From the IMG/VR virus record IMGVR_UViG_3300021356_000043, positions 1 to 42,650 of that record: DNA of 42,650 bases; one strand, written 5' to 3'. Below are positions 34,308-37,089 of the stretch, piece after piece (position 1 is the first letter of the stretch; each line of letters begins with the position of its first letter). Below the pieces are notes generated by a model that worked only from the letters and a program-made list of their open reading frames with translations, was not told the DNA's origin and made no database searches. A program made the translations under genes and the position numbers. This stretch comes from a virus.

Positions 34308-35021
34308 ATGGCATTGCCTAAACTAAATGATATGCCGAAGTATTCGGTAACTATACCATCGTCTAAACAAGAGGTTCGGATCAGACCTTTTGTAGTAAAA
34401 GAAGAAAAGATTCTATTAATTGCAATGGAGTCACAAGATCCAAAGCAAATAGCAAATGCAATACTTGACACTATTGTATCTTGTACAGAAGAACAAATTG
34501 ACGCAAATAGTTTAACTTCATATGACGTTGAGTATTTGTTTTTACAGATAAGAGGAAAGTCTGTAGGTGAGAAATCGAATGTCATTTTAAAATGTATGGA
34601 ATGTGGACATGACAACGAAGTGACTATAGATCTTGGTGATATAAAAATTGAAGGAAATATACCTGATAAAAAAATAAAAATAACAGATCAAATATCTTTA
34701 GAAATGAAACCCCCTAGTTATCTACAAGTAGCGGATAATGAAAAGATTATAGGGGAAGGACAAAAAGATGTTGATAGGGTTTTTGGTCTGATCGTTGCTT
34801 CTATTGGTGCAGTACTTACAGAAGAAGAGAGATTTGATTTCAAAGATTACTCATTCGAGGAAGCGACTGAATTTTTAGAATCTATGACGAGTGAACAGTT
34901 TACTAAAGTTCGTGATTACATGGAGAGTCAACCAGCTCTAAGACATCCAGTAGAATATGATTGTGAATCGTGTGGTCATAAAAACAAAATTAACTTGGAA
35001 GGAATGCAAGATTTTTTTTAG
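34308..35021 (+). CDS. 26: Baseplate hub assembly protein gp26 (zero-frame product)
   Basis: A 237-residue member of the T4 base-plate protein family (T4 gp26, 208 residues). It has 'VRIRPFVVKEEKILLIAMES' (23-42), 'DVEYLFLQIRGKSVGEKSNV' and two zinc-ribbon-like pairs, 'LKCMECGHDNE' and 'YDCESCGHKNK'. These are two C-x2-C knuckles, near residues 90 and 220. It has an AGGAG ribosome site. The last codons run into eight T's followed by AG (GAT TTT TTT TAG), and a -1 shift there would add 61 residues. It sits directly upstream of the tape measure, like tail-assembly chaperones. Confidence 0.88.
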   Translation: MALPKLNDMPKYSVTIPSSKQEVRIRPFVVKEEKILLIAMESQDPKQIANAILDTIVSCTEEQIDANSLTSYDVEYLFLQIRGKSVGEKSNVILKCMECGHDNEVTIDLGDIKIEGNIPDKKIKITDQISLEMKPPSYLQVADNEKIIGEGQKDVDRVFGLIVASIGAVLTEEERFDFKDYSFEEATEFLESMTSEQFTKVRDYMESQPALRHPVEYDCESCGHKNKINLEGMQDFF

Positions 35022-35203
35022 TTAGTCTATCTCATACCAGTTTGATGGTGCATTATAAAACTAACTTTGATCTTATGCAACATCACAAATACTCATTGAA
35101 TGAGATAGACGAAATGATACCATGGGAAAAAGAAGTTTATGTTAATATGTTGATTGATTTTATTAAAGAAGAAGAAATGAGAATGCAAACACAAGGAAGA
35201 TAA
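35012..35203 (+). CDS. Probable -1 frameshift extension of gp26
   Basis: In the -1 frame after the T8 run (35012-35019) an open stretch of 61 codons ends at TAA 35201-35203. It reads 'LVSLSHTSLMVHYKTNFDLM' and then 'QHHKYSLNEIDEMIPWEKEV' with a helical end. It looks like real coding sequence. The first in-frame ATG (35045) has no ribosome site and would discard part of the conserved-looking start. Slippage on T-TTT-TTT (P and A sites both Phe) would fuse it to gp26, as with lambda gpG/gpGT. A separate small gp51-like gene is the alternative. Confidence 0.7.
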   Translation, partial: FFLVSLSHTSLMVHYKTNFDLMQHHKYSLNEIDEMIPWEKEVYVNMLIDFIKEEEMRMQTQGR

Positions 35204-35252
35204 CATATTTTATTTGTTTTTAATATTGGTTCATCTGGGTAACGGAGAAACT

Positions 35253-35357
35253 ATGTTAGAAATAGATGAAGGTTTCTGGAATTATAAAATATGTGTTGAG
35301 TATGCAAGTAAAATAAATGGTGAAGCATATTGCATTCCAGTAGAAATAGGAAGATAA
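35253..35357 (+). CDS. 34-residue mini-gene before tape measure
   Basis: ATG at 35253 has a good ribosome site (GGAGA, 4 bases upstream) and runs to TAA at 35355-35357, one base before the tape-measure ATG. The product, starting 'MLEIDEGFWNYKICVEYA' and ending 'AYCIPVEIGR', has no recognised family. The tight coupling to the next start suggests that its translation may set the rate of tape-measure translation as much as make a protein. Confidence 0.6.
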   Translation: MLEIDEGFWNYKICVEYASKINGEAYCIPVEIGR

Positions 35358-35358
35358 A

Positions 35359-37089
35359 ATGGCAGAGGCAACTTTACGAGACCTTATAAAAGTTATGAAT
35401 GCAGATATGAAAGCATCTGCATCTGCTGACGAAAATCAAAAAAGAGCAACCTATGCAGTACGTGATGAAGTACAAAGGTTAACTACTCTATTCAATAAGT
35501 TCTTTCTTGCACAAAAGGCTGCAGAAGGTGACAAACTAGAAGCAGACAGGGAAAAGAGAAAAGTAAAAGACAATCAGCAACGTGCAATGGGTAGTGCGTC
35601 AAGTGGTGCTGGTGGTAAAGTTGGTGGAAGTTTAAAAGAACTTATTCAAGGTATGGGTGGTCTCACCAGTCTTGGAACAATCACCGCAGGACTTGCAGCA
35701 ACTACTGCGGCGCTGGCCGGTTTGCGTGGTTGGGAAATGAAAGCACTTTCGAATATAGATGAACTAGGGAAAGGATTGAAAAGTTTAATTCCTATATCTG
35801 TGGTAGATTCTTTGAAACAAGGTTTTGTAAATCAAAGAGCATCTATCTTAAGAATATTTGGATTTGATCCTGCATTAAAAGCATTTGGTGGTGCAGGTGA
35901 TGATGTAACTTTAAAAACCCCATTGTTAACACAAATCACTGATAGATTTAAAACTCTAAGATCAGAATTTATGTTGAAATATTTTGGTATAGGTGTAGAT
36001 GGTAAAGCGACAGTAAAAGTTACAGGGCCAGGCAAAGCGTTACTTCAGATCGAGGATGGATTTAAAAATATCATTGGCCCATTTAGAAGTTTGGGAAAAG
36101 GTATTGCGACATTCCTTGAGGGAACTGGTAAAGTATTTGTAGATTTCCTAGCACCATATATGAAAGGTGGTGCAAAATTATTTGGAACTTTATTTAAAAG
36201 AATTTTATGGCCAGTCGGTATCATTATGGATCTCTTTGCAGGAGTACAAGCATTCAGAGGTGAAGAAGGTAATTTTTATGATAAGACTGCAGCAGGTATC
36301 TCCACATCAATAGGTAGTTTTTTAGGTTCACCATTAGATCTATTAAAAGGCGCAATCGGTTGGATCACTAAAACAATCTTTGGATTAGAAACAAATGAAG
36401 ACGGAACTGTAAAAGAAGGACAAGGATTGCCTGGCGCATTCGTAAAAGTTCTAGAGGGATTAGATTTCAAAGAGACTATTACTGCAATAGTTAAAGCACC
36501 ATTTACTCTATTAAAAGGTGTGTTTAATTTTGCAACCAGTGCAGAGTACAGAGCAGAAGTTATAGAGGACGGTAAAGAAACAATTAGAGGTTGGGGTAGA
36601 CAATTTGTAGAATGGATTGGTAGCATTCTTCCTAGTATGGAAGGATTAAAACAATGGTTTACTGAAACTGCACAAAAATATTTACCCGAAGCAGTGTACA
36701 AAAGATTATTCAATGTCCCAGAACCAATGCAATCAGTTGATCTTGGGGTTCTTGATTTAGATGGTGATGGAAGACTTTCTGGAAAAGAAATTAGAAATTC
36801 ACGTGATCGCAATGATCCATTGAATGCAACCAGAGAACTTCTAAGAGAAAAACTTATGGCTGATGCAACTGCATCAGTTGGTGCTGCAGGAGCAGGTTAT
36901 GCAGTGGATGGACTTATGCAAAGAGGTATTGCTATTCCACAAAACCTAAGACTGCAAACTGGTGGTGATACTGGTGCAGGTGGTGCATTTATAGTACAAG
37001 GCGGCACTGATAATAGTAGCAGCACCGCCGTGTTAGAAAATGGTTCTATAGTTGTTCAAGACGTAGGTCTTGATGGTCAGTCAAACTAG
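35359..37089 (+). CDS. 29: Tape measure protein, gp29-type
   Basis: A 576-residue protein, close to T4 gp29 (590 residues), that would set tail length and sit inside the tube. The N-terminus is helical and charged (1-85). Hydrophobic segments follow: 'LTSLGTITAGLAATTAALAG' (about 98-117) and 'ILWPVGIIMDLFAGVQAF' (about 284-301). 'LKGAIGWITKTIFGL' lies between amphipathic helices typical of membrane-penetrating tape measures. Near residue 465 is an EF-hand-like loop 'DLDGDGRLSGKE'. It follows the gp26/extension pair, as in other tailed phages. Its stop overlaps the convergent gp32 stop. Confidence 0.82.
   Translation: MAEATLRDLIKVMNADMKASASADENQKRATYAVRDEVQRLTTLFNKFFLAQKAAEGDKLEADREKRKVKDNQQRAMGSASSGAGGKVGGSLKELIQGMGGLTSLGTITAGLAATTAALAGLRGWEMKALSNIDELGKGLKSLIPISVVDSLKQGFVNQRASILRIFGFDPALKAFGGAGDDVTLKTPLLTQITDRFKTLRSEFMLKYFGIGVDGKATVKVTGPGKALLQIEDGFKNIIGPFRSLGKGIATFLEGTGKVFVDFLAPYMKGGAKLFGTLFKRILWPVGIIMDLFAGVQAFRGEEGNFYDKTAAGISTSIGSFLGSPLDLLKGAIGWITKTIFGLETNEDGTVKEGQGLPGAFVKVLEGLDFKETITAIVKAPFTLLKGVFNFATSAEYRAEVIEDGKETIRGWGRQFVEWIGSILPSMEGLKQWFTETAQKYLPEAVYKRLFNVPEPMQSVDLGVLDLDGDGRLSGKEIRNSRDRNDPLNATRELLREKLMADATASVGAAGAGYAVDGLMQRGIAIPQNLRLQTGGDTGAGGAFIVQGGTDNSSSTAVLENGSIVVQDVGLDGQSN

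Follow-up and report, generated by a model that had tools for sequence, protein, structure and literature searches.

In the window analyzed here, the whole 42,650-nucleotide stretch of IMG/VR virus record IMGVR_UViG_3300021356_000043, the gp26 gene of a marine T4-like phage ends inside a run of T's and a second open frame begins at the same place in the -1 register, which raises the question of whether the locus encodes two proteins or one protein and a longer form of itself. An earlier note on this sequence had favored the latter, proposing that a programmed -1 frameshift joins gp26 to a gp51-like tail to give a G/GT-type pair of tail assembly chaperones (TACs) just before the tape measure. 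The features that bear on this question are as follows.

34308-35021, plus strand: gp26, short form (TAC-N-like), 237 aa, stop TAG at 35019-35021; profile matches to PF12322 (E 2.6e-61) and phrog_150 (E 2.8e-62).
34999-35003, plus strand: AAGGA, an SD-like element separated by 8 nt from the heptamer that follows; anti-SD duplex of -5.7 kcal/mol.
35012-35018, plus strand: slippery heptamer T_TTT_TTT, phased for -1 slippage, with the gp26 stop TAG directly 3'.
35018-35203, plus strand: gp51-like C-terminal tail in the -1 frame, 61 codons and a TAA stop at 35201-35203; profile match to phrog_634 (E 6.2e-26), helical model with pLDDT 85.6.
35020-35066, plus strand: possible downstream RNA fold with an inner hairpin, in which AGUUAGU (35020-35026) pairs with ACUAACU (35060-35066); MFE -10.2, z -1.62.
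35359-37089, plus strand: 576-aa ORF in the inferred tape-measure position; E 0.001 to an ORF of HTVC008M.

The 3' end of gp26 is as the earlier note described it, reading GAT TTT TTT TAG within an eight-T run (35012-35019), and the heptamer inside this run is in phase for tandem -1 slippage. The layout of a programmed -1 site, an in-phase X_XXY_YYZ motif with overlapping open frames, is thus present in the window, as it is in 174 of the 176 distinct junctions considered below. The -1 frame had been said to run for 61 codons with no usable start and to resemble gp51, and both statements hold. It is open from 35018 to 35200, where it encodes LVSLSHTSLMVHYKTNFDLMQHHKYSLNEIDEMIPWEKEVYVNMLIDFIKEEEMRMQTQGR, and its earliest start-like codons are a TTG and an ATG at codons 9-10, which lie within a conserved block and have no visible SD-like sequence upstream. 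The 61-residue product matches the 'baseplate hub assembly catalyst' (gp51) profile. Given that gp26 belongs to the T4_baseplate family (PF12322), the short form of a T4-like TAC pair, reading on in the -1 frame would yield a long form predicted at 298 aa and composed of a gp26 domain and a gp51 tail, both of which are also found in T4 gp51. Structural and family searches were less informative about chaperone relationships. The AlphaFold model of gp26 (pLDDT 92.7) returned no significant match to solved chaperones in the PDB, the HK97 chaperone 2OB9 being the sole match above 0.5 probability among the matches listed (0.63 and 0.54; E 1.2, rmsd 3.0, 56 columns). For the tail, a Foldseek search of the model against the PDB gave no significant match, and 51 tails compared with Pfam matched no chaperone family even at permissive E-values.

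Comparison with relatives, which the earlier note had proposed as a check, indicates that this arrangement is maintained. In the first 37 relatives, the gp51 tail is in the -1 frame and gp26 closes on TTTTTTT or TTTTTTC. In a wider set of uncultured viral contigs and annotated phages, 213 loci possess both gp26 and gp51 parts, and gp51 is in the -1 phase in 212 of them, across independent assemblies that include isolates. An in-phase T_TTT_TTN heptamer accompanies the -1 frame in all of the 176 distinct gp26/gp51 junctions except those of T4 and Cygsa01, and the slip-type junctions span Kyanoviridae, Emdodecavirus, Pootjesviridae, Menderavirus, Busanvirus, Aeromonas PX29 and a KVP40-like Vibrio phage. 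For codon statistics, we grouped junctions chosen for having the heptamer into 134 clusters at 70% identity, a selection that excluded only one -1 junction with detectable gp51. The codon before the Phe pair ends in T in every one of these clusters, against a gene background of 73% (log10 P -19.9), and TTT is the only codon used for the first Phe, against 68% (log10 P -25.8), a fixation that holds even in a phage of 59% GC. The gp51 tail is itself strongly conserved among relatives, with the peptide xLSHxSLxxYYxTNF beginning no more than four codons from the slip site. Collectively, the conservation of the -1 phase and of the heptamer is far beyond chance.

The principal alternative is that gp51 is translated on its own as a small protein, through termination and reinitiation just after the gp26 stop, with no fusion being produced. 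GenBank records do list gp51 as its own gene, and there are lineages whose junctions look suited to such coupling: Vibrio phage K393, Pseudomonas phage Cygsa01 and Dickeya phage JA15, the last a member of Ackermannviridae, have no heptamer, and in them the gp26-type gene overlaps the gp51-like frame at a TAATG, and TAATG or TGATG overlaps also occur in RL2RES, phiM19 and K566. K393, Cygsa01 and JA15 group together in the gp26 tree (100/98); the K393 and JA15 tails fall below the search threshold and hence lie outside the count of 176 junctions. A start codon for the second part, which the earlier note had named, together with an intact ribosome site, as evidence against frameshifting, is indeed present within four codons of the slip site in some relatives (P-SSM2, ACG-2014f). 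However, in the window, as in 105 of the 134 clusters, the -1 frame opens with eight codons that include no ATG, GTG or TTG, yet the conserved block begins there, and the annotated gp51 genes start at internal codons that cut the domain. Moreover, reinitiation would not account for two slippery codons fixed at 100%, and T4 possesses the gp51 tail only within a gp26-like fusion. Because start codons are missing and slippery codons are fixed, reinitiation is weakened as an explanation, and we regard it as unlikely for the window.

Further evidence comes from the sequences that surround the slip site. Across the family, the stretch upstream of the heptamer pairs with the anti-SD better than its synonymous recodings do, by 1.4 kcal/mol (P 1e-10), and no SD-like pairing gain was found at ten other gp26 positions. 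The Glu codon before a conserved Gly (GAG-GGN) is GAG in 43 of 64 cases as compared to a background of 29% (P 3e-10), and the spacer between the SD-like element and the heptamer measures 7-9 nt in most clusters. Downstream, 48-nt segments beginning at -1 codons 0-8 exceed their synonymous recodings in stability by 1.5-2.4 kcal/mol in the 134 clusters (P 1e-8 to 1e-13), while the same comparison in the gp26 body gives an excess of approximately 0.3 kcal/mol. This excess stability does not correspond to a single downstream fold conserved family-wide, and no covariation was detected for the predicted downstream stem in the window's own clade. A hairpin that pairs the SL and KT codons is seen in many relatives; we rejected it as a candidate since it is barely above the synonymous null (P 0.006). 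Stimulatory elements of both kinds, SD-like and structural, are thus found family-wide, and the window itself has AAGGA together with a fold of z -1.6 that lacks covariation. Across the 134 clusters, the frameshift signal has three classical parts: slippery codons, an upstream SD-like sequence and an excess of downstream structure.

These elements also bear on whether it is RNA polymerase, and not the ribosome, that slips on the T8 run to give the fused frame. Polymerase slippage begins near runs of about eight T's, so that the window's run of eight is close to the onset length, but the run consists of only six T's in 71 of the 134 clusters, and ribosomes, but not the polymerase, would be expected to respond to an SD-like element and to downstream structure. 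With the run this short in half of the clusters, we reject transcriptional slippage and consider it very improbable. Another reading is that an ancestral in-frame fusion, such as the long form found in T4, has decayed and left the second frame behind, or that one gene was split by a sequencing error. It is scarcely tenable, since the -1 phase recurs across independent assemblies in 212 of the 213 loci and the tail is strongly conserved.

Overall, we consider it highly probable, judging from sequence, that a programmed -1 ribosomal frameshift yields both gp26 and a gp26-51 fusion from one gene, and the earlier note's assignment of this T4-like phage to the frameshifted chaperone scheme is supported by conservation of the T-run and of the downstream frame, the lack of a usable start in most relatives, the gp51 identity of the tail and the short/long relation. 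In the mechanism that we propose, most ribosomes would terminate at the TAG at 35019 to produce the 237-aa gp26, and a minority, stalled by the SD-like AAGGA that lies 8 nt before the heptamer and by folded mRNA in front of them, would slip one base back on T_TTT_TTT and read the gp51 tail to produce the 298-aa fusion. We infer that slippage does occur, at a rate that would make the fusion the minor product, and that gp26 and the fusion would be the short (N) and long (NC) members of a tail assembly chaperone pair that keeps the tape measure soluble. On the model of lambda G/GT, the short form may cover the tape measure, and the C-terminal tail of its longer counterpart may recruit tube or hub subunits.

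The placement of this pair just before the tape measure, also part of the earlier note, is less certain. The next ORF, 35359-37089, is in place for a tape measure and weakly matches an HTVC008M ORF annotated as 'putative tail tape measure', but it has no match among tape-measure families or to T4 gp29, and an optional segment of approximately 152 bp intervenes. The tape-measure label is thus putative and draws on position and one weak match. The optional segment (35204-35357) lies between the gp51 stop and the next gene and is flanked by a 13-nt direct repeat (AGGAAGATAACAT at 35194 and AGGAAGATAAAAT at 35348). It is present in relatives L006, L007, L010, L011, L014, L016, L017 and L020 and absent from L015 and L005, the latter despite a gp26 99% identical to that of the window, and it contains a conserved short frame, ...LVHLGNGET(I/M)LEMDEGFW...INGEAYC.P.E.GR, with no obvious start in most copies. 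Elsewhere in the neighborhood, the head-closure (gp4-like) protein at 32552-33049 matches the Pfam TnsA-like endonuclease N-terminal family (5e-19).

The T4 proteins show what the two predicted products correspond to. T4 gp26 consists of PF12322 only, T4 gp51 has PF12322 at residues 1-201 and the phrog_634 tail after it, and the two are paralogues (E 2e-6). Since T4 gp51 is a gp26-like domain plus the tail, T4 encodes the short and long forms as separate paralogous genes, which agrees with the earlier reading of gp26 and gp51 as a short/long pair and makes the slip-type locus the equivalent of T4's two genes. The gp26 and gp51 genes are divergent neighbors in T4, S16 and 44RR, and a T4-type gp51 match occurs in 1339 phage records. 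Klebsiella phage CP-p-KP-21068 (L222, 1501-2792) differs from T4 in having long gp51-type and short gp26-type genes in tandem with a 4-nt overlap, located behind the tail tube gene; this may represent the arrangement just after duplication. In a tree of the gp26 and gp51 family, the T4-branch gp26 and gp51 lie apart from the slip-type genes (support 89/89, where long branches meet), which is consistent, at modest support, with one duplication in the T4 branch. On balance, we favor a history in which SD-enhanced, structure-stimulated -1 frameshifting was ancestral in T4-like phages, was kept from cyanophages to KVP40-like Vibrio phages, and was replaced once by the T4-branch duplication and by a TAATG overlap in the JA15 group. 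If true, there would be three directly comparable natural solutions to one problem of short:long chaperone stoichiometry. That gp26 and gp51 are short and long forms of one chaperone would also explain why T4 needs both, and the presence of slip-type loci in most surveyed T4-like lineages as opposed to two genes in T4 makes the required short:long ratio testable.

Several known systems resemble this locus. The lambda G/GT tail assembly chaperones are reportedly the subject of work by Xu, Hendrix & Duda from 2004. In lambda, a -1 slip on G_GGA_AAG near the end of the short gene, before the tape measure, gives a long form with an extra C-terminal domain. The window shares the slip near the short-gene end and the C-terminally extended long form, but differs in its slip site and in a gp51 tail with no detectable sequence relation to Pfam chaperone families. 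Escherichia coli dnaX frameshifts by -1 on A_AAA_AAG with an upstream SD-like stimulator and a downstream stem, and is alike in combining an SD-like sequence, a slippery run and downstream structure to give short and long forms; it differs in the site, in a shifted product that is the shorter one and in encoding an unrelated protein.

Closest to the window are the TACs of T4-like phages, which are said to be treated by Vladimirov, Gautam & Davidson in Virology 566:9-15 (2022). Its title, two papers that cite it and the domain make-up of the T4 proteins lead us to read its TAC genes as gp26 and gp51. As reported by these citing papers, some T4-like phages encode the short protein and the fused long one in separate genes (PMC10885494, reporting Vladimirov et al. 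2022), and the same study is credited with poly-T slip signals in T4-like TAC-N genes (PMC12846349). The tie that the earlier note drew between T4 hub-assembly proteins and lambda-type chaperones is therefore sound but, to the extent that these accounts convey it, already published (Vladimirov et al. 2022, via PMC10885494 and PMC12846349). The TAC locus of Vandenendeviridae and Andersonviridae, with an invariant GTTTTT and a second frame wrongly recorded as a gene of its own or as hypothetical, is alike in its T-rich -1 slip and differs in phage family (PMC12846349). The public records that we inspected likewise give gp51 as a separate, often truncated gene or omit it from the annotation; the GenBank records of S-WAM1, ACG-2014b and ACG-2014d leave the gp51 coding region unannotated. 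With the T4-like TACs as relayed in these citing accounts, the window has in common a short and a predicted long chaperone form and a poly-T slip signal, whereas T4 itself uses two genes where the window has one gene with a slip site. Frameshifting at this site is very likely, and the window adds a well-supported and previously unannotated example to a scheme that earlier work had reported in T4-like phages.
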